DNA of 64,000 bases, taken from Tissierellales bacterium. GTDB taxonomy: Bacteria > Bacillota > Clostridia > Tissierellales > VENL01. This document shows positions 1-12,997 of the stretch, in pieces (position 1 is the stretch's first letter; each line of letters starts with the position of its first letter). The position numbers were made by a program, and so were the translations under genes. The notes beneath the pieces are model-generated. The model saw only the letters and a list, made by a program, of their open reading frames with translations. It had not been told where the DNA came from and did no database searches. The stretch covers positions 124,001 to 188,000 of the forward strand of contig JANQLB010000084.1 of NCBI GenBank assembly GCA_028280805.1, written 5' to 3'.

Positions 1-1791
1 TTTACAGAGGTACAAGGAATTTTTAATGAATTATCCGGTCAAGGGCTTCAGAATGTAATGGATCAGTTCTGGAATAGCTGGGAAGAACTTTCAAAACATC
101 CTGATAATCTTACTATGAGAGGGCTATTACATGAGAGAGCTGTTGCTTTTGTAGAAACAGTAAACCATATGGCAAATCAATTGGATAACTTACAGATAAA
201 TATAAACGAAGACATAAAAAACAAAGTAAACGAAGTAAATTATATTTCTAAGCAAATTGCAGCTTTAAATAAAGAAATCACATCGTTAGAATCGTTTGAT
301 GTCAAGGCTAATGATTACAGAGATACTAGGAATCAGCTTTTAGACAGATTATCTCAAATAGCTAACATAAGTTATAGAGATGACCCGACCGGAGCTATAA
401 ATGTTTTACTGGGCGGTCAAACCTTAGTTAACCAATCTAACTATAGAGAAATTGAATCCGTAAAAAATAATAGTACATTTGTTGATGTTTACTGGAAGGA
501 TACATTAACTAACGGCACGACTTTAAACCCTGACTCACAGAAGGTAAATCTACAATCGGGTGAACTAAGGGCATTAATTGATGGAAGAGGAAATATTGAC
601 TCTACGATTATCGGTCAAGATAACGGAACTGTTAATGATGAAGTTGATGTAGTTTTTGCAGTGGATGTAAGTGATAGTAATTCAGCTAACTTAGCTAATA
701 TCCAAACTGCAATAGAGAATTACAGAGATGATATGTTATCAAGAGGCTTGGATGCTCAAATTAGTGTAATTATTTATGGAAACGGAGCTCCAATGGCTGT
801 AACGGCTGAAGCATTTCAAGCGTTAGGAAGTTTTACGTTCTCAGCTCCATTATCGACGCTGGCAGCTACAGGTACTGATGTTGAAAACTTTGATGCTGTA
901 ATAAACAATATAAACGGTACAACCTTTAGACCCGATGCACATAAAAAACTCATCGTATTTTCAGATGATAACATTGGTGGAGCTATTGATGAAACTGGAA
1001 ATATTCAAACCTATTTAGATGACTTGAATAATCTGGGAATATCCACAACCATCGTCTCTGATCCATCACATAAACTAGATGGAGATACTTTTGACGAGGG
1101 ATGGGATGAGATAACTTATCCTACAGGTGGAGATTTCTTTGATATTAATAGATTAGGTTCAGGTATAGATGAGCTGGCAAAAGATTTAGCACAAGAAACT
1201 TCTGACACTGCCAGCAGGTATATGGGAAGAATTGAAGGCTATGATGAAATAATTCCCAATCTTAGACAAAAATTAAACTCATTTGTAAATACTATAGCTA
1301 GAAATATTAATTATATTCATCAACAGGGAAAAACTCTTTCAGGAGCAAATGGAGCTGAATTCTTTGTTGCATCTAATTCAAACGAACCTATTCAGGCAGG
1401 AAACATTAAAATTAATCCGCTTTTAAATACATTAAACAATATTGCTGTATCAAAAGATGGAGATAGAGGAGATGGAGAAATAGCAAAGAGTATTGCCGAT
1501 ATAAGAAAGTCTTATGTTTTTGCCGATATGATAGTAGATGAATATTTCAGAGACATCATATCAGATGTAGGAGTTGCAGCAAATGAAGTAGATGCATCAA
1601 GAATTAGTAAGCAGATTCTTTTAGACAATATATACCATAATAAGGCTTCTATATCAGCCGTATCTCTTGATGAAGAGATGACTAAAATGCTTCAATACCA
1701 ACACTCATATGTAGCTAATTCAAGGGTAATTAATGCAATTGATGAGATGGCTAATTTTATTATCAACAAAATGGGGGTTGTTGGAAGATAA
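1..1791 (+). CDS. flgK: Flagellar hook-associated protein 1 (FlgK) with inserted vWA domain, 5' end outside window
   Basis: Hook-filament junction protein. The reading frame is already open at base 1, so the start lies upstream; 596 residues are visible. The helical FlgK domain covers visible residues 1-210 and the conserved C-terminal region (SLDEEMTKMLQYQHSY, ending GVVGR) closes the protein. Between them, about residues 215-400 form a von Willebrand factor A domain. It has a MIDAS-type DVSDS at residues 222-226 (base 664), TGTD with Thr292, and FSDD near residue 322. In FlgK from other species the ALIDGR segment runs directly into the helix that here begins near RIEGYDEI, so the insertion sits between two FlgK helices. 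A second, ordinary flgK follows downstream. FlgK identity is secure. The vWA call rests on motif and fold-pattern reading. Confidence 0.93.
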   Translation, partial: FTEVQGIFNELSGQGLQNVMDQFWNSWEELSKHPDNLTMRGLLHERAVAFVETVNHMANQLDNLQININEDIKNKVNEVNYISKQIAALNKEITSLESFDVKANDYRDTRNQLLDRLSQIANISYRDDPTGAINVLLGGQTLVNQSNYREIESVKNNSTFVDVYWKDTLTNGTTLNPDSQKVNLQSGELRALIDGRGNIDSTIIGQDNGTVNDEVDVVFAVDVSDSNSANLANIQTAIENYRDDMLSRGLDAQISVIIYGNGAPMAVTAEAFQALGSFTFSAPLSTLAATGTDVENFDAVINNINGTTFRPDAHKKLIVFSDDNIGGAIDETGNIQTYLDDLNNLGISTTIVSDPSHKLDGDTFDEGWDEITYPTGGDFFDINRLGSGIDELAKDLAQETSDTASRYMGRIEGYDEIIPNLRQKLNSFVNTIARNINYIHQQGKTLSGANGAEFFVASNSNEPIQAGNIKINPLLNTLNNIAVSKDGDRGDGEIAKSIADIRKSYVFADMIVDEYFRDIISDVGVAANEVDASRISKQILLDNIYHNKASISAVSLDEEMTKMLQYQHSYVANSRVINAIDEMANFIINKMGVVGR

Positions 1792-1848
1792 ACAAAGAAT
1801 GATTGAAAATTTAAGATTTAAAATTAAAAATATTATTAGAGGACCTTT

Positions 1849-2136
1849 ATGAAGAAAAATAATATTATTAAAGAAAAAACTTATAATTTTGCTTTAAGAA
1901 TTATTAAGATTAGCAAATATTTAAATCAGAATAAAAATGAATATGTATCATCTAAACAAATATTACGTTCTTGAACAATTGTTGATGATAATGTTGAAGA
2001 AGCATGTTCAGGATAAAGCAAGAAGGATTTTATTTCTAAACTATCAATAGCATTGAAAGAAGCCTTTGAAACCAGATATTAGATTACTATTTTAACAAAA
2101 ATTATCAAAACTACAGAGGAAAACCTATATAAATAA
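1849..2136 (+). pseudogene. Decayed four-helix-bundle (23S rRNA IVS-type) protein
   Basis: One frame from ATG 1849 reads as the four-helix bundle family named after proteins encoded in 23S rRNA intervening sequences. Recognisable pieces are KEKTYNFALRIIKISKYL, NEYVSSKQILRS, DDNVEEACSG and SKKDFISKLSIALKEAFE. The frame has no indel but is broken by TGA, TAA and TAG codons; the last sits where the family has Trp (ETRYW). These proteins often travel as small mobile or accessory genes. Here the remnant separates two flgK genes. The family call is by remembered consensus. Confidence 0.7.
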
Positions 2137-2176
2137 ATTTTACATTTTAAATTTCCATAGAAAGGTTGAGATATTA

Positions 2177-3745
2177 ATGAGTGGTTGGTCAGGATTTTAT
2201 ACAGCAGTATCGGGATTGTATTCAAGTCAAAAGTCATTACATACTGCAAGTCACAACATAGCAAATGCAAATACTCAAGGTTATTCCAGGCAGCAGGTTT
2301 TAAGCAGAACTAATTCTGCATTTATGTTACCCGGAGTTGGTATGCTTGGAATGGGTACTGCGGTTTATGATATATCTAGAGTAAGGGATAGTTACTTGGA
2401 TTTTAAAGTTACTAATGAAAATGCTCCCTTAGGAGAATGGCAAGTTAAAAGTCAAAGTCTTACTGAAATAGAAAGTATGTTTAATGAACCATCTGACTCT
2501 AGTTTCAGACAGTATATGGATGATTTTTTTGTATCTTTAGAAAAATTAAGTATAAATCCCTCTAATGGTTCACACAGAGGTTCGGTTAGGCAAATGGCAT
2601 TAGCGTTAACAAATCATTTAAATGAAACAGCACATAATCTTTATGATATACAAAAAAATCTAAACTTTGGTGTTAGGACAAAGGTAAAGGAGATAAATGA
2701 CTATGCTGAGCAGATAAGTGATTTAAATAATGAAATATATAAGATTGAGGTAGACGGCAAAACTGCAAATGATTTACGTGATAGAAGAGACTTATTAGTC
2801 GGAAAGCTGTCTAAAATTGTAAACATACAAACTAGTGAAAGAGATGAAAAGTTTAGAGTAACTATTGGAGGAATAACGCTTGTAAATCATGTAGAAACCA
2901 GTAAGTTAAACATTATCACTGTTGATAATAAATATAATCCTGATGAAAAATTAGCTCAAGTTGAATGGGAAACAGGAAACCAACCATTAAAACTCGAATC
3001 AGGTGAACTAAAGGGATTACTTGAAGTAAGAGATGGAGATGGTCAAGGTGACAGCTATAGAGGAGTGGCATTTTACATAGAGCGTCTAGATGAATTTGCT
3101 AGAAAGTTAGTTGAGAAATTTAATGCAGTTCATTATAACGGTACTGGATTAAATAGTAGTAGTAATAAGTTGTTTTTCTCCTTTGATCAAAAAAACACTG
3201 CTGATTTTGATAGTCAGTTAAGCACTGCAACTGGTACAGCTTTAAGTGCGGTAGATTTTACTAATACAGCCAGTGGTACTTATGGTAATTATAAGAGTTT
3301 TATAGCTAACAATGTTAGAGCAGATAATATTTCATTATCTGGAGACATATTATCCTCACTAGATAATATAGCTCATATAGCTGCTGCATCTGGAGATAAT
3401 GGAGTAGAAAATAACGAAAATGTTTTAAAACTTATAGAACTAAGGCATGATAATTTTTTCTTTGACGATACTACTCCTCAAGGTACGCCAGATGACTTTC
3501 TTAAGGCAATACTATCAAATGTTGCAGTTGATAGTCAGCAGGCAGGTAGAATGTCACAAAACCAAAATGTTATTATGTATAACATTAAGAGAAATCAAGA
3601 TTCCATATCAGGAGTATCCTTAGACGAAGAAATGTCTAATATAGTGAAATTTCAGCACTGTTATAATGCTTCTGCTAGAATCATAAGTACAATAGATGAA
3701 ATTTATGATGTAACTATTAATAGACTTGGACTTGTTGGAAGATAG
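2177..3745 (+). CDS. flgK: Flagellar hook-associated protein 1 (FlgK), canonical form
   Basis: Protein of 522 residues, normal for FlgK, which joins the hook to the filament outside the cell. The N-terminus has the rod/hook helix signature SGLYSSQKSLHTASHNIAN with NTQGYSRQ (residues 11-40). The middle is helical, with LNNEIYKIE and the SGELKGLLEVRDGDG junction. The C-terminus reads GVSLDEEMSNIVKFQHCYNA and ends GLVGR. ATG 2177 follows a weak GAAAGG site. This is the second flgK in tandem. Unlike the upstream copy it has no inserted domain and the RDGDG segment runs directly into YRGVAFYIERLDEFARK. Confidence 0.96.
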   Translation: MSGWSGFYTAVSGLYSSQKSLHTASHNIANANTQGYSRQQVLSRTNSAFMLPGVGMLGMGTAVYDISRVRDSYLDFKVTNENAPLGEWQVKSQSLTEIESMFNEPSDSSFRQYMDDFFVSLEKLSINPSNGSHRGSVRQMALALTNHLNETAHNLYDIQKNLNFGVRTKVKEINDYAEQISDLNNEIYKIEVDGKTANDLRDRRDLLVGKLSKIVNIQTSERDEKFRVTIGGITLVNHVETSKLNIITVDNKYNPDEKLAQVEWETGNQPLKLESGELKGLLEVRDGDGQGDSYRGVAFYIERLDEFARKLVEKFNAVHYNGTGLNSSSNKLFFSFDQKNTADFDSQLSTATGTALSAVDFTNTASGTYGNYKSFIANNVRADNISLSGDILSSLDNIAHIAAASGDNGVENNENVLKLIELRHDNFFFDDTTPQGTPDDFLKAILSNVAVDSQQAGRMSQNQNVIMYNIKRNQDSISGVSLDEEMSNIVKFQHCYNASARIISTIDEIYDVTINRLGLVGR

Positions 3746-3868: not shown

Positions 3869-4909
3869 ATGCGAGTTACAAATAATATGCTTATAAATAA
3901 TTTGATGAGAAATTTAAATAGTAACTATACAAAAATGGACAGAATTCAACAACAATTAACCACCGGCAGAAAGTTTCAACTGCCATCCGATGATCCTATC
4001 GGAGTATCTAAAAGCTTAAAGTTTCATACAGACATTTCTATCATTAAGCAACACAAAAGAAATTTAAATGATGCTCGTTCCTGGCTTCAAGTAACTGAGG
4101 ATGCTGTAGCAGAAATAGGAGATATATTCCAAAGAGTACGGGAGTTAACAGTACAAACTGCAAACGGTACTAACACAAATGAGGACTTGATTCAAACTTC
4201 TGCAGAGATTAAGCAGCTTAAAGAACATTTAATAAAGGTAGGAAATAGTACTTATGCAGGAAGATATATATTTTCCGGATTTAAGACAGATTTACCTCTT
4301 CTTGATGATGAAGGTAATTATAAATTAACCAATTATGACGAAGTAACTACATTCACAAATCCACCTGCTGATACTCAAGAATTACAAAATAGCGAACTTA
4401 TTAATTATAATACAGGAGTATCAGATAATGTTACAATTAATACTATAGGAATCAAGATTTTTGGGATACTTGATCCTTCAGGGGACATGGATATAACTAA
4501 TTTCAATGCATATACTGTTAATGGATATGATGTGGTTGATGCTGATAAAGAAGCTATAGGAACTAATGCTGACAAATCTTATCTTACATCCCTTTTTGAT
4601 CTAATTAACAACGCTATGAATGTAGATGATAAAGACACTCTACAGGAGTGCATTACTAAACTGGATAAATCTATGGAAAATCTATTATCTGTTAGAGCAG
4701 ATATTGGAGCTAAAATGAGCAGACTTGAACTAACAGAAAAAAGACTTGATTCTCAGCATACTAGCTTTACAGAACTATTGTCTGAAAATGAAGATGTTAA
4801 CATGGCTGAGATAATTATGGAATTAACGAATAATGAGAATGTTTATAGAGCTTCATTATCTATGGGATCGAGAATTATACAGCCAACATTAGTTGATTTT
4901 CTTCGATAG
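3869..4909 (+). CDS. flgL: Flagellar hook-associated protein 3 (FlgL)
   Basis: Second hook-filament junction protein, 346 residues, flagellin-like. The N-terminal helix begins MRVTNNMLINNLMRNLNSN and contains the family signature QLTTGRKFQLPSDDPIGV. The C-terminus carries the coiled helix ending NVYRASLSMGSRIIQPTL. ATG 3869 follows GGGGAGGG at the usual distance. It lies downstream of flgK and 12 bp upstream of the YviE-like gene, as in the Bacillus subtilis flgK-flgL-yviE-fliW-csrA block, and is probably co-transcribed with it. Confidence 0.96.
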   Translation: MRVTNNMLINNLMRNLNSNYTKMDRIQQQLTTGRKFQLPSDDPIGVSKSLKFHTDISIIKQHKRNLNDARSWLQVTEDAVAEIGDIFQRVRELTVQTANGTNTNEDLIQTSAEIKQLKEHLIKVGNSTYAGRYIFSGFKTDLPLLDDEGNYKLTNYDEVTTFTNPPADTQELQNSELINYNTGVSDNVTINTIGIKIFGILDPSGDMDITNFNAYTVNGYDVVDADKEAIGTNADKSYLTSLFDLINNAMNVDDKDTLQECITKLDKSMENLLSVRADIGAKMSRLELTEKRLDSQHTSFTELLSENEDVNMAEIIMELTNNENVYRASLSMGSRIIQPTLVDFLR

Positions 4910-4921
4910 GAGGAAATTCCT

Positions 4922-5473
4922 GTGTCTATACAAATAAGGACTATTGATGCAAAGCTAAATTTAAACATAACCTATCCTAAGATTGATATACAGCAGTCTA
5001 AAGGACACTTAAATATAAACCAGACAAATGCAGAGTTAATAATTCATAAAGAAGAACCAAAAGTAATTATTGACCAATATCAATGTTTTGCAGAATCGGG
5101 ATTAAAGAATAATGCAGATTTAGCTAAACAGTTTAAACAATTAGCTCTTAGGAAAGTTTTAGAGGGAATAAACAGAAAAACATCTGAAGGCAGAAGAATG
5201 ATTAATATAAAAAGAGGTAATTCTAATGCTATATCTGATATAGCTAAAAGAAATTTTCAACCTAAAACACGTCAGTTTAATTACGATATTATGCCTAAGA
5301 GCCGACCTAAAATAGACTTTGAGGAAAGCTTTAGTATGGACTGGAAATTAGGTGGAGTAGAAATAGATTATAAAATAGAAAAAGCTATGAATAATTTTCA
5401 GTGGGGAAAGGTAGAAGGGTATCTAGACCCATATCCTGATATTGAAATAAGTTATATTGATGAGAGAAAGTAA
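4922..5473 (+). CDS. YviE-like flagellar locus protein (DUF6470 family)
   Basis: Protein of 183 residues with GTG start at 4922 behind AGGAGG. It starts IQIRTIDAKLNLNITYPKI, with repeated short beta-like segments (LNINQTNAELII, PKVIIDQYQ) and a Gly/Arg-rich middle. Size and position between flgL and fliW match B. subtilis YviE, whose role is unknown; DUF6470 is the family name I recall. No catalytic motif, signal peptide or membrane segment is visible. Spacing to fliW is 14 bp, so it is part of the same transcription unit. Confidence 0.75.
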   Translation: MSIQIRTIDAKLNLNITYPKIDIQQSKGHLNINQTNAELIIHKEEPKVIIDQYQCFAESGLKNNADLAKQFKQLALRKVLEGINRKTSEGRRMINIKRGNSNAISDIAKRNFQPKTRQFNYDIMPKSRPKIDFEESFSMDWKLGGVEIDYKIEKAMNNFQWGKVEGYLDPYPDIEISYIDERK

Positions 5474-5487
5474 GAGGAGGTAATACG

Positions 5488-5940
5488 GTGAAATTAAATA
5501 CAAAACATTTTGGCGAGATAGAGATAATAGAAAAAGAAATTATTACCTTTCCTAACGGATTATTTGCTTTTGAAGATAATAAGAAATTTATTATAATAAA
5601 CAATCCGGATAAAGAAATTCCCTTTAAATGGCTTCAATCTATAGACAATCCGGATTTAACGTTTGTTATAATAAACCCCTTTATTTTCAAATCAGACTAT
5701 GATTTTTCTCTTAATGAATCAGCTATAGAAAAGCTTGAAATTAAAGAAGAAAAAGATATAGCAGTATATAATATAGTTGTAATTCCTGAGGATATTAATA
5801 AGATGACTGTTAATTTAGCAGCTCCGATAATAATCAATGTAAATAAACTTCTCGGTAAGCAAATAATACTGGATGATAACAGGTATTCACATAAACACTT
5901 AATTGTACAAGAAAAGCAAAACGCTAAACGGGAGGCTTAG
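5488..5940 (+). CDS. fliW: Flagellar assembly factor FliW
   Basis: FliW (150 residues) binds CsrA and, alternatively, flagellin, so cytoplasmic flagellin levels decide whether CsrA is free to block hag translation. The sequence has the family start TKHFGEIEIIEKEIITFPNG, the FKWLQSIDNPDLTFVIINP block and NLAAPIIINVNKLLGKQIIL near the end. The GTG start at 5488 is preceded by AGAGGAGG. The gene ends 3 bp before csrA, which is the usual translationally linked pair, and hag follows downstream, completing the three-part switch. Confidence 0.96.
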   Translation: MKLNTKHFGEIEIIEKEIITFPNGLFAFEDNKKFIIINNPDKEIPFKWLQSIDNPDLTFVIINPFIFKSDYDFSLNESAIEKLEIKEEKDIAVYNIVVIPEDINKMTVNLAAPIIINVNKLLGKQIILDDNRYSHKHLIVQEKQNAKREA

Positions 5941-5943
5941 CAT

Positions 5944-6171
5944 ATGCTTATACTTACAAGAAAAAAAGAAGAGAGCATCATAATTAATGGAAATATAGAA
6001 ATAATAGTATCAGATATTGAAGACGGAAAGGTTAAGCTTGGTATAAAAGCTCCTAAAGATATTGATATACATAGAAAAGAAGTCTATATTACTATACAAA
6101 ATGAAAATAAAGAAGCTGCTAATTTAGATAATGTTGATATATCAAAATTTAACGACATATTTAAGAAATAA
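5944..6171 (+). CDS. csrA: Carbon storage regulator CsrA
   Basis: RNA-binding translational repressor of 75 residues. The start [20 protein letters not shown] and the block [19 protein letters not shown] are diagnostic. CsrA dimers bind GGA motifs in RNA hairpin loops; in Gram-positive flagellated bacteria the main target is the hag leader. Candidate sites are present in this window's hag leader (GGA in a hairpin loop at 6843-6848 and the SD itself). ATG 5944 is preceded by GGGAGG. Confidence 0.97.
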
Positions 6172-8469: not shown

Positions 8470-10329
8470 ATGAATATCTATAAAAATAATTTGGAGCTTT
8501 TAAAAAAAAAGAATGATATAGTATACGCTGAAATTAAGAGAAAATTAGATTGTTTTGACGAAAATGCCGGAGTTAAGGTTGAAGTTCATAAGAATAAGGA
8601 AGGACTGCTAAATGTCACAATAAATAACAAAAAAAATAAATGGTTTGTTCACAGTAATTATAATGCAACAGTTGAAGCTGAAAGATGGGTACAGTCTGTT
8701 GATATTAAATCAAGAATAATTATAATTCTTGGGATGGGAATGGGGTATCATATTCAGGAATTACTTAAAAATATTGGTCAAGATACTATATTAATTATCA
8801 TAGAGCCAGAGATAGCAATAGCTAAGAAATTATTTCAGTATAAAACAATTGAGAATATTATCATGGATGAAAGAGTAAGATTTATTTTAAGTGATGATGA
8901 AAAAGATGTAGCAAATATGATATTTGATATATTTAAAAATTTGTTTATGGAGAATATCGAATTTAAAATTTTTAATAACTACTCTATTGATTATTTTGAA
9001 ATGTTTAATAACGTTCAAAAAGAATTATATAATACAATGAATAGTCTAATAGTAAATATGGCCACTAGAGAACATTTCAAATACTTATGGCTTGCTAATT
9101 TTATAGGCAACACCTCAAAAATATGCAGCAGTTCAAATTTTAAAGATCTATTGAATAAATTTAAGGGAAAACCCGGTATTATTGTTTCCGCAGGACCTTC
9201 ACTAGATAAAAATATACATTTGCTAAAAAAATTAAGAAATAAAGCTGTAATTATTGCAGGTGGTTCTGCTATAAGAATATTAAAGAAAAAAGGTATAGAA
9301 CCACATTTTTTAGTAGCGATAGATGGTGATCCATTGGAGAAGGATATTTTCGATGATATTGATTTTCAGAATAATACATTAATATATACTAATAGGTTAT
9401 ATTATGAAATAGTAAAAGAGTATTCAGAAAAGAAATTCTTAATACTGGATAATGAGGATGAACTCGCAAAATATTTTTCAGACAAATATAACCTTGACTT
9501 GGTTCAAATATCTCCTAGTCAGACTGTTGCAGGGATAAATATAAATGTAGCTACTTTATTAGGGTGTAACCCAGTAATTTTTGTAGGTCAAGACTTAGCC
9601 TATACAAATTTAGAGCATCATGCTGACGGAGCTGCTCATATGTGTAATTTCGAAGAGGAATTGAAAGAAAATCCAAAGAAGTTTATTAAAGTTAAAGATA
9701 TATTTGGTAATGACACATATACTATTAAGCAGTTTTTAACTGCTAAAAGAGAAATGATGAGAAAAATGGCTAAAGAAATTGAAAAGGGATATATGTTTAT
9801 AAATGCTACAGAAGGAGGAATTGGACTTGATATATGTCCTAATATGACATTAAAGAAAGTCGAGAAAGAATTTCTGCAAAATGAATTTGATAGTATAGAA
9901 GATACAATTAATGATGTCCATACCAATGCAAGTATAAAAATAACTGAAAACCAATTGGAAGAATTTTTGAATCAAATGATAAATGGTGCTGATGAGTTAA
10001 AACAAATTATTAAGCATAGATATGACTTAAGTATAGAGATTAGAGATATTCTAAAAAATAAAGATTTTAATAATAGTAAATTAAATAAATTATCATTGGA
10101 AGTGAATATGCTTGAAGAAAAAATTAATGAAAGTGAATTTTATAATAAAATAGTTAAAGGATCTATAGCACAAACTTTAACAATACATAGTGGAATAATG
10201 AATAAAAAATTAAATTACTCTGATGATATGTTTGAAAAAAATATGATAAAAATTCAATGTATAATTAATCAATGCATGGAAATTATAGGAGTTTGCAGTT
10301 TTGTTATTAATATGGACAGGATACTTTAA
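8470..10329 (+). CDS. Maf/DUF115 family flagellin glycosyltransferase
   Basis: Protein of 619 residues of the motility accessory factor family, which transfers nonulosonic acid sugars (pseudaminic or legionaminic acid) to Ser/Thr of flagellin in the cytoplasm. The central MptE-like domain (about 220-380) shows GKPGIIVSAGPSLDKNI, AGGSAIRILKKKGIEPHF, AIDGDP and VGQDLAYT. The C-terminal third is helical and probably binds flagellin. Its position directly after hag supports this role. The sugar-synthesis locus downstream is largely destroyed, so the donor sugar must come from elsewhere or the enzyme is now idle. Confidence 0.88.
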   Translation: MNIYKNNLELLKKKNDIVYAEIKRKLDCFDENAGVKVEVHKNKEGLLNVTINNKKNKWFVHSNYNATVEAERWVQSVDIKSRIIIILGMGMGYHIQELLKNIGQDTILIIIEPEIAIAKKLFQYKTIENIIMDERVRFILSDDEKDVANMIFDIFKNLFMENIEFKIFNNYSIDYFEMFNNVQKELYNTMNSLIVNMATREHFKYLWLANFIGNTSKICSSSNFKDLLNKFKGKPGIIVSAGPSLDKNIHLLKKLRNKAVIIAGGSAIRILKKKGIEPHFLVAIDGDPLEKDIFDDIDFQNNTLIYTNRLYYEIVKEYSEKKFLILDNEDELAKYFSDKYNLDLVQISPSQTVAGININVATLLGCNPVIFVGQDLAYTNLEHHADGAAHMCNFEEELKENPKKFIKVKDIFGNDTYTIKQFLTAKREMMRKMAKEIEKGYMFINATEGGIGLDICPNMTLKKVEKEFLQNEFDSIEDTINDVHTNASIKITENQLEEFLNQMINGADELKQIIKHRYDLSIEIRDILKNKDFNNSKLNKLSLEVNMLEEKINESEFYNKIVKGSIAQTLTIHSGIMNKKLNYSDDMFEKNMIKIQCIINQCMEIIGVCSFVINMDRIL

Positions 10330-10484
10330 TAAATTTTTGAACTTATTGGAAAATTTCTTATTTGAATTACTATTTAAAATATACGAAAATACTTTCTAAA
10401 TTCTCTTAAATGGGCGGATTAAATATTATTTAAACCTAAACATTATATCTATAGAAGATAAGTCAACAGAAAGGAGATATTATT

Positions 10485-10804
10485 GTGACAAAACCTAGAA
10501 TAATCCTTGTTGTTGGTGGTGGACACTGTAAAGTAGTTACATCAATCTTACAAGAGATAGATAGTTTTGACATATATGGTATATCTGATTTAAAATCTAA
10601 ATTAAACAATAAAATCTTAGAGTAAAAATTAATACTACAGATGAACAATTAAGAGATGTGTTTATGAATGTTGTTGCTAATGCTTTCATTACAATTGGAA
10701 AGATTGACAATTCAGCAACTAGACATAGGCGGTATGATAAAGTTAAAAATATTGGATTCAAAATACCAAAACTTATTAATGGACTAATAAAAAGTATAAT
10801 TTAA
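10485..10804 (+). pseudogene. neuD-like sugar acyltransferase, frameshifted and truncated
   Basis: From GTG 10485, behind AAGGAGAT, the frame begins MTKPRIILVVGGGHCKVV, the NeuD/PglD-type N-terminal Rossmann segment (GGGHxKVV), and continues EIDSFDIYGISDLKSKL. It hits TAA at 10623. A one-base loss near 10620 restores the family reading when corrected (KILGVKINTTDEQL), and the second frame runs through NAFITIGKIDNSATR and NIGFKIPKLI to TAA at 10804. The entire left-handed beta-helix acetyltransferase half is missing. NeuD enzymes acetylate sialic or legionaminic acid precursors. Confidence 0.75.
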
Positions 10805-10856
10805 AAACTTAAATTATAAATACTAGAAAAAGTTTAAGTATTGTAGGCTTAGAAAG

Positions 10857-11530
10857 GTAATTATTGATTATTCAATTGAGAATAATTATCACTTATTAAT
10901 ATTAGGGGATTGTGATGATTATTTTTCAAATAATAGAATAAAATCAATTATACAGCAATTTGATATATATAAGGATTTTTTTATAACAAAATAACGCCTA
11001 TATCAAACAATGGTAAAATACTAAGTTCTTATGGTAGAGAATTACCTGCACAAATAGATGATTATAAAGAAATCTTAGATTATAACTTTCTTGGACTATC
11101 TAACACCTCATTAAATCTAATTAAGACTACAAAATACTTAAAAGAAATTAAGATATCAAATGTTATTGCATTTGATTGGTATTTATACTCGCTTCTGTTA
11201 TATAAGCATTACTGCGGAAAACTTGTTGACAATACTAAGACATTTTATATAATTCATGAAAATAATACAGCTGGCATTACAAACCTCCTTACTGAAGAGA
11301 CACTTATTAAAGGTATAAGAGTTAAAGAAAATCATTACAAAGCATTGTTGCATACTGATGATACATTTAAGCACAAGCTGGCAAATATACTAAAGTTAAA
11401 GAAAACTCTTGACGATAATAAATATAGAAAATTATATATAGATACAATAAATAAGAATTCAAGTACTTCATTGTTTTAGCGGGAAAATATAAAAACTCTT
11501 GAAGAAATAGAGGAATTAAAATGGCAGTAA
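10857..11530 (+). pseudogene. Decayed surface-polysaccharide glycosyltransferase-like gene
   Basis: Fragments in two frames form one protein. The first is IDYSIENNYHLLILGDCDDYF (a family-2 glycosyltransferase-type acidic motif) followed by NNRIKSIIQQFDIYKDFF. A frameshift near 10990 leads to ITPISNNGKIL, LDYNFLGLSNTSLNLIKTTK, NVIAFDWYLYSLLLYK and FYIIHENNTAGI. A TAG at about 11478 stands where Trp is expected, before RENIKTLEEIEELKWQ and TAA. The start is missing. The DCDDYF and HENNT motifs fit glycosyltransferases of sialic or legionaminic acid clusters; this is a recollection-based call. Confidence 0.6.
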
Positions 11531-11567
11531 AAATTAGGAATAGAATTTTCGGAAATTATACTGAATT

Positions 11568-11639
11568 ACTGAAGAAGATATAACTTATAAGAGACCAGGT
11601 ATCGGAATTGAACCCAAATACAAGGATTTTCTTATTGGA
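11568..11639 (+). pseudogene. neuB/legI C-terminal (SAF domain) fragment
   Basis: A 24-codon stretch, TEEDITYKRPGIGIEPKYKD followed by FLIG, matches the antifreeze-like SAF domain that ends N-acetylneuraminate/legionaminate synthases (pattern ITxKRPGxGIxPxY). Nothing of the catalytic TIM barrel is left. It is joined almost directly to the neuA fragment that follows, which indicates deletion of the intervening DNA. Confidence 0.7.
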
Positions 11640-11644
11640 CTAAT

Positions 11645-11884
11645 ACATTAGATAAAGATTTAGTTCTTGATAATTTTATAAAAAAGGAAATTATAAACAA
11701 AAACCGACAAGAATTACCAGACCACTATAGATTAAATGGTGCTATTTACATTGCTAAGCCTAATTATCTATTAAAGAATAGAAACTGGTATAAGGAAGAT
11801 AGTTATGCATATATAATGCCTAGAGTAAGGTCAGTAGATATTGATAGTGAAATCGACTTTACGATTGCCAGAAGTATTAATTAA
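11645..11884 (+). pseudogene. neuA/legF C-terminal fragment
   Basis: An 80-codon open stretch ending in TAA reads DKDLVLDNFIKKEIINKNRQ, LPDHYRLNGAIYIAKPNYLL, SYAYIMPRVRSVDIDSEIDF. This is the C-terminal half of CMP-sialic/legionaminic acid cytidylyltransferases (signature RxxLPxxYRxNGAIY...MP..RSxDIDxxxDF). The nucleotide-binding N-terminus is absent and there is no start codon with a ribosome binding site, so it is non-functional. Confidence 0.8.
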
Positions 11885-11920
11885 AAAACAACAATCATAT
11901 AAAACGGGGAGTTGAATTAT

Positions 11921-12997
11921 ATGAAGAATCTAGAACATGTTTTAGTAAACGAGAAATGTTCTATTAAGGAAACCATGGAGCATATTGATAAATCAGGAAG
12001 AGGTATAGCAGTAATAGTAGATGATAATAAGCGCTTGATAGGTACAGTAACTGATGGTGATATTAGAAGAGCAATATTAAATAAGATGTCGATAGATTTA
12101 AGCGTTAATACGATAACGAAATATGACTGCATATTTATAAACAGTACCTCTTCTAAAAAATTTATAGAAAATATTTTCAAATCAAAAAAAATACTTCAAA
12201 TTCCAGTAGTAGATGAAAGTATGAGAGTAACTGACGTTATATTTTTTAAAGATTTATATGATAAAAATAATTCAAGAAATAATTATGCTCTTATTATGGC
12301 AGGAGGACTTGGAACAAGACTAAGACCTTTAACTTCTGAATTACCAAAACCTATGTTAAAGGTTGGGGACAAGCCTATTTTAGAAATAATAATTGGTCAA
12401 TTAAAAAGCTTCGGTATTACAAATATATTAATATCAGTTAACTATAAAGCTCATATTATTGAAAGCTACTTTAGAAATGGCAATGATTTTGGAGTTAACA
12501 TTGAATATATAAGAGAAAAGAAAAGGTTAGGTACAGCCGGATCTCTTAAGCTTGCAAGACATTATTTAGATAAACCTCTTATATTAGTAAATGGAGACAT
12601 ATTAACAAAGCTTAATTTTGATCAATTCTTAGATTTTCATGTTAGAAATAATGCTGATATAACTATAGCAACTAGAAAGCATGACATAGATATACCATAT
12701 GGTGTTGTAGATTTAAACGATACAAGTGTTGTAGATTTAAAGGAAAAACCTACATTAGAATTTTTTGTGAATGCAGGAATGTATTGTATTAGCCCCCAGA
12801 TGGTTGACTACATTCCCGATAATGAATATTATGACATCACGACACTTATAGATATTGCTATGAAAAAGAACTACTCGGTTAAGAGTTTTCCTATAAGGGA
12901 ATATTGGATAGATATAGGGCAGATACAGGATTATACAAGGGCTAATAATGAATACTTTGATATATTTAGGAGTGAGATAAGTGCAACTAGAGAATAA
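11921..12997 (+). CDS. CBS-domain nucleotidyltransferase (PtmE-like)
   Basis: Protein of 358 residues. Residues 1-120 are a CBS pair (GRGIAVIVDDNKRLIGTVTDG, then QIPVVDESMRVTDVIFF). Residues 124-350 are a nucleotidyltransferase with MAGGLGTRLRPLTSELPKPM, ILVNGDILT and EYWIDIGQ. The same architecture occurs in Campylobacter PtmE, which makes GDP-glucosamine for legionaminic acid. ATG 11921 is preferred over an upstream TTG because GGGGAG lies 9 bp before it. It is the only intact gene inside a decayed nonulosonic acid locus. The exact sugar cannot be read from the sequence. Confidence 0.82.
   Translation: MKNLEHVLVNEKCSIKETMEHIDKSGRGIAVIVDDNKRLIGTVTDGDIRRAILNKMSIDLSVNTITKYDCIFINSTSSKKFIENIFKSKKILQIPVVDESMRVTDVIFFKDLYDKNNSRNNYALIMAGGLGTRLRPLTSELPKPMLKVGDKPILEIIIGQLKSFGITNILISVNYKAHIIESYFRNGNDFGVNIEYIREKKRLGTAGSLKLARHYLDKPLILVNGDILTKLNFDQFLDFHVRNNADITIATRKHDIDIPYGVVDLNDTSVVDLKEKPTLEFFVNAGMYCISPQMVDYIPDNEYYDITTLIDIAMKKNYSVKSFPIREYWIDIGQIQDYTRANNEYFDIFRSEISATRE

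Follow-up and report, generated by a model that had tools for sequence, protein, structure and literature searches.

A von Willebrand A-fold domain within the hook-filament junction protein FlgK1 of Clostridia

The window analysed here, a stretch of 64,000 nucleotides from a Tissierellales bacterium, begins inside a gene of a flagellar operon, and the question raised by this gene is whether a von Willebrand A (vWA) domain has been built into the junction protein FlgK and, if so, what such a domain could do at the hook-filament junction. A sequence-only reading had proposed this architecture and had suggested a metal-dependent adhesion module. The flagellar genes concerned are the following, with loci of the compared genomes designated below by L numbers.

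1..1791, plus strand: flgK1, the FlgK paralogue with the vWA insert (TIGR02492, FlgK_D1 and Flg_bbr_C; the first 95 codons precede the window)
2177..3745, plus strand: flgK2, the tandem FlgK paralogue without the insert (TIGR02492, 362.3 bits; separate FlgK2 clade in the tree)
3869..4909, plus strand: flgL position, flagellin-like junction protein (Flagellin_N/Flagellin_C and gene order)
4922..5473, plus strand: DUF6470 (yviE-like) gene of the flagellar operon (PF20074, 2.3e-48)
5488..5940, plus strand: fliW (PF02623, 5e-44)
5944..6171, plus strand: csrA (PF02599, 1.3e-22)

The frame at 1-1791 is open throughout and starts 95 codons upstream of the window; the complete flgK1 (L037:11716-13791) encodes 691 amino acids. 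Scored without its first 95 residues, the product reaches 233.9 bits against TIGR02492, the curated NCBIfam equivalog for FlgK (cut-off 170.75), and it matches the Pfam families FlgK_D1 (4.5e-53) and Flg_bbr_C (5.7e-11). By these profiles the product is identified as FlgK, the hook-filament junction protein, and its assembly into the junction is predicted. The genes are arranged in the order flgM, flgN, flgK1, flgK2, flgL, DUF6470, fliW, csrA, flagellin and maf-like, which is the standard order of a Gram-positive flagellar operon, as in Bacillus. The gene for the FlgK1 chaperone, flgN, lies immediately upstream of flgK1, and the neighbouring flgK without an insert, already pointed out from the sequence, is confirmed as flgK2 (2177..3745).

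Two further features of the locus may be recorded here. Between flgK1 and flgK2, the plus strand at 1849-2136 carries a reading frame broken by several internal stop codons (MKKNNIIKEKTYNFALRIIKISKYLNQ...), which by eye resembles a four-helix-bundle or 23S rRNA intervening-sequence protein; because the corresponding flgK1-flgK2 gap in Sporosalibacterium (L038) is shorter than 20 bp, this frame looks like a lineage-specific insertion. Downstream of the flagellin gene, the region 8470-12997 (plus strand) encodes an MptE-like/Maf-type protein and then what appears by eye to be a sugar nucleotidyltransferase with CBS domains, which suggests a flagellin glycosylation locus.

The insert itself and the residues of its metal ion-dependent adhesion site (MIDAS) are placed as follows.

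622..1215, plus strand: vWA-fold domain inserted in FlgK D1, full-protein residues 303-500 (Pfam VWA, AF2, PDB matches and insert length)
664..678, plus strand: MIDAS loop 1, DVSDS (DxSxS) (sequence and 49-homologue alignment)
874..876, plus strand: MIDAS loop 2 Thr (ATGTD), Thr292 (sequence and 49-homologue alignment)
964..966, plus strand: MIDAS loop 3 Asp (VFSDD), Asp322 (sequence and 49-homologue alignment)

With ~195 residues (visible-frame residues ~208-405, nucleotides 622-1215), the insert is slightly larger than first estimated (~185 residues at 643-1200); its presence, the clean FlgK sequence on both of its sides and the residues quoted for it (DVSDS at 222-226, Thr292 and Asp322 in window numbering, all exact) were read correctly. 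Searched alone, the insert matches Pfam VWA (PF00092) at E 2.3-2.4e-4, and it is one of only five places returned by a six-frame VWA search of the whole genome (E 4e-4). Its score of 21.9 bits falls just below the Pfam gathering cut-off of 23.8, and a phmmer search of the PDB with the single insert gave no match, two results that would also be expected if the insert were a generic Rossmann-like or variable region merely resembling vWA. This reading is rendered highly improbable, however, by homologous inserts that pass the VWA cut-off (L043 at 35.0 bits and L041 at 28.0 bits, with E values down to 2e-8 in relatives), by a profile built from 26 inserts that matches the integrin alpha-M and alpha-L I domains in the PDB (E from 6e-5), and by fold comparison, in which the best matches are vWA/I domains with Z up to 18.5. 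In related genomes, the same profile also picks up ordinary vWA proteins (E 5e-17); L036, a vWA protein of a related genome, matches Pfam VWA at 4e-12. Searched singly, only 7 of the 26 inserts reach E 0.1 or better against VWA, and the insert family is therefore divergent.

The AlphaFold (AF2) model of the insert (mean pLDDT 84, pTM 0.87) has the alternating beta-alpha open sheet of vWA topology. Its Foldseek neighbours are integrin I domains, BatB, LapA vWFA and vWF A1 (E from 8.6e-8), and re-alignment by VIA gives an rmsd of 2.6 over 174 residues at the highest Z. When the visible 596 residues are modelled together, the FlgK proteins of Salmonella and Campylobacter are the top matches, with vWA domains next. 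A VWA profile search and the prediction of a Rossmann-like fold had been named at the outset as checks on the vWA claim; both were run, neither contradicted it, and the claim is upheld by Pfam VWA, the AF2 fold and the family profile. We therefore treat the insert as a vWA-fold domain by profile and predicted structure. A chance motif is ruled out by the profile, fold and family evidence, and an artefact of assembly or frame by the recurrence of the architecture in independent genomes and by the position of the gene inside a 242-kb contig.

On alignment with Salmonella FlgK (9go6), the insertion point lies between residues ~287 and 292, in the link from the D1 beta-hairpin to the following long helix. 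Salmonella FlgK, in contrast, has its D2 domain inserted later in the chain, and the FlgK1 region that matches this later site is short. The vWA domain thus appears from the alignment to be the sole sizeable outer domain of FlgK1, placed at a site different from that of Salmonella D2. Across 152 complete FlgK proteins, the length at the insert site is bimodal, either 146-239 or 0-25 residues with none between: all 48 complete insert-bearing FlgK1 proteins carry 146-239 residues at the identical site, and all other FlgK proteins carry 0-25.

The insert is not a peculiarity of one organism; many Clostridia have it in their FlgK1 paralogue. Within the order of the window, a FlgK of any kind is found in 93 of 248 genomes, and FlgK1 with the insert in 13 of 249, spread over six families; named hosts in Tissierellales include Sporosalibacterium and Anaeromonas. 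Of 391 genomes drawn evenly from the class, 32 besides the window's own have a match below 1e-20, in frames of 531-779 amino acids; the ones re-examined as loci lie in FlgK frames. Other named hosts are Herbivorax, Ruminiclostridium, Pseudobacteroides and Thermoclostridium. Phylum-wide matches besides the window lie mostly in longer or different frames and are candidate FlgK proteins at most. Across Tissierellales and the other clostridial families the insert was seen in FlgK1 and never in the tandem FlgK2, and none of the matches listed that carry it is a frame-disrupted copy.

The history of the insert was read from an unrooted tree of the FlgK core (141 rows, insert columns removed). FlgK1 is one side of a branch with SH-aLRT support of 98, FlgK2 is a separate group placed with FlgK proteins from other Clostridia (Fusibacter, for example), and all inserts lie within FlgK1. 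Insert presence requires six changes on this tree, against 36 in shuffles. Both states occur within genus g20 (L012 and L014 with the insert, L019 and L020 without), and L060 lacks the insert that its sister L146 has. In a separate tree of the inserts, those of FlgK form one group that is distinct from the free vWA domains and divides along host lineages, the free domains being a small set picked by similarity to the inserts. Independent insertion in each lineage is not favoured, given the identical site and, within the limits of that small set, the grouping of the inserts. One ancient gain followed by several losses is probably the history that these trees reflect, an unrooted count being indifferent to gain and loss.

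Many Tissierellales and related Clostridia keep two ancient FlgK paralogues in tandem (window 1-3745; L038-L061). By the tree the flgK1/flgK2 tandem long predates the window genome, a point on which the sequence-only reading was unsupported or over-read. Modelling of the Salmonella junction suggests that identical FlgK layers cannot stack (PMC12221982), and against this no-stacking model two FlgK proteins sharing one junction are a puzzle.

All five MIDAS residues (DxSxS, the loop-2 Thr and the loop-3 Asp) are present in the window FlgK1. Among 49 FlgK inserts the complete set is found in four (L037, which is the window's own, L043, L137 and L144); 42 retain the loop-1 Asp, 19 the full DxSxS-type motif (with Ser or Thr allowed) and 15 the loop-3 Asp, which is replaced by Asn, Gly or others in the remaining 34. 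The gapped loops are hard to align, and of these counts the one for loop 2 is the least certain; the nearest relatives of the window protein, L004 and L005, have no Thr at the aligned place. The most conserved positions of the insert are instead Trp463 and Gly472, each kept in 47 of 49, Thr470, and the base residues Asn303-Gly304, which hardly vary; the MIDAS-face loops are less conserved than the strands. The insert also evolves faster than the FlgK core (46-47% versus 61-68% identity to same-family relatives). On this evidence the family conserves the fold, not the metal site, which on this alignment is decayed in most relatives. The FlgK1 proteins of L011, L012, L013, L014 and L021 have shrunken inserts of ~137-157 amino acids, in which the C-terminal half of the vWA domain remains but the MIDAS loop is gone, as is the central region.

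FlgK export is assisted by FlgN. FlgK1 would be exported unfolded with this chaperone and would polymerise at the hook tip, and its vWA domain would fold outside the cell, giving an outward-facing vWA ring at the hook-filament junction. On balance we favour, if only by a little over even chances, the view that this ring of modules acts mainly as a protein-contact outer domain, with metal binding possible where the MIDAS is whole. Because clostridial FlgK1 seems to be without the D2 domain of Salmonella, the vWA domain may be the outer contact domain here and bind adjacent subunits of the junction or hook, or other material at the surface; its most likely job would be performed through the vWA surface and not through a conserved metal site, while in the minority with a whole MIDAS, the window protein included, metal-dependent ligand binding may persist. 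In Salmonella, the junction has 11 FlgK per flagellum (PMC12221982), and the accessory outer domains of FlgK, which vary among bacteria, have been modelled as touching the hook (PMC5691160). A compensating change in the hook protein was sought and rejected, as FlgE open-frame lengths show no counterpart to the insert, with no clear difference between genomes with it (426-506 amino acids) and without it (416-489). Clean loss in some lineages (L060, genus g20) shows that the insert is inessential for the existence of FlgK1, and such losses fit an accessory better than an obligatory structural role. The retention of the loop-1 Asp in 42 of 49 inserts tells against the contact role, as it could mean some pressure on the metal site.

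The same Asp is among the reasons for considering metal-dependent adhesion, in which a divalent cation at the MIDAS would let the FlgK1 vWA domain hold an external ligand and the junction would be a surface-binding ring. All five positions are in place in the window protein, and among its nearest folds in the PDB are integrin I domains that bind ligands and the vWFA of the adhesin LapA. As a role for the family this is nevertheless unlikely, because complete sites are so few, the loop-3 Asp is replaced in most inserts, the two nearest relatives have no aligned loop-2 Thr, and ~11 domains near the cell body would occupy a sparse and sheltered position. A metal-dependent adhesion module, as proposed from the sequence, is not what the family conserves, the complete MIDAS being rare and the domain lost outright in some lineages; the window FlgK1 itself may yet act in adhesion. 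A narrower version, in which the members that keep the MIDAS form a junction ring of integrin-I-like metal-dependent domains acting as a ligand-binding or mechanosensing collar, is held to be slightly less likely again. Alternatively, the insert may be a hitch-hiking domain that serves no selected function: acquired long ago and tolerated where the surface is permissive, it would now be decaying. The erosion of the MIDAS, the shrunken inserts, the outright losses and the faster divergence from the core would all agree with decay, but a fold-sized insert, in which Trp, Gly and base residues hardly vary, persists in 42 of 49 proteins from several lineages, no disrupted frame is found among the listed matches that carry it, and a useless domain of 190 residues should disappear far more often; we regard this explanation as improbable. 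An outer domain that acts mainly through protein contacts remains the preferred reading.

Compared with the FlgK/HAP1 proteins of Salmonella, Campylobacter and Burkholderia pseudomallei (9go6, 2d4y, 5xbj, 4ut1), FlgK1 shares the D0/D1 core, the C-terminal FlgK signature and the place in a flagellar operon; those proteins also have lineage-specific outer domains (D2, D3), but these are not described as vWA. The fold is likewise that of the LapA vWFA (9no5), the I domains of integrin alpha-X, alpha-2 and alpha-M, BatB (3ibs) and the TFIIH vWA subunit. The MIDAS motif of vWA and integrin I domains recurs in the window FlgK1 but is mostly incomplete across the FlgK family, and these known domains sit in adhesins, receptors and complexes, whereas none of the matches lies within a flagellar protein. 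In kind, the nearest precedent is the proteolytic flagellin flagellinolysin (PMC5595980, PMC7643111), in which a globular functional domain is similarly inserted into a flagellar axial protein and displayed on its outside; there, however, a metallopeptidase is built into the flagellin FliC, of which there are thousands of copies, whereas FlgK1 would form a ring of ~11 subunits with a vWA insert. A search confined to the open literature brought up no description of a vWA-bearing FlgK, and within that scope the earlier claim that no case had been described holds.

FlgK proteins of the Syntrophomonas type (L106:6001-8538, L081:676-3198, L101:6001-7803) have another large insert, at a later site; they measure 841-846 amino acids, and related forms ~600. 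A second vWA-FlgK architecture was considered for Syntrophomonas and rejected, as Pfam returns no vWA, nor any other family, for the insert that was searched. It seems that FlgK can take up outer domains unrelated to one another.

FlgK is usually viewed as a structural gasket of the flagellum, and some Clostridia put an integrin-type domain into it and keep a plain FlgK alongside. These bacteria offer a natural system for asking what purpose the outer surface of the hook-filament junction serves, and whether a junction shared by two FlgK paralogues has them stacked, mixed or alternating. Relatives of the same genus with and without the vWA domain make a direct comparison possible.
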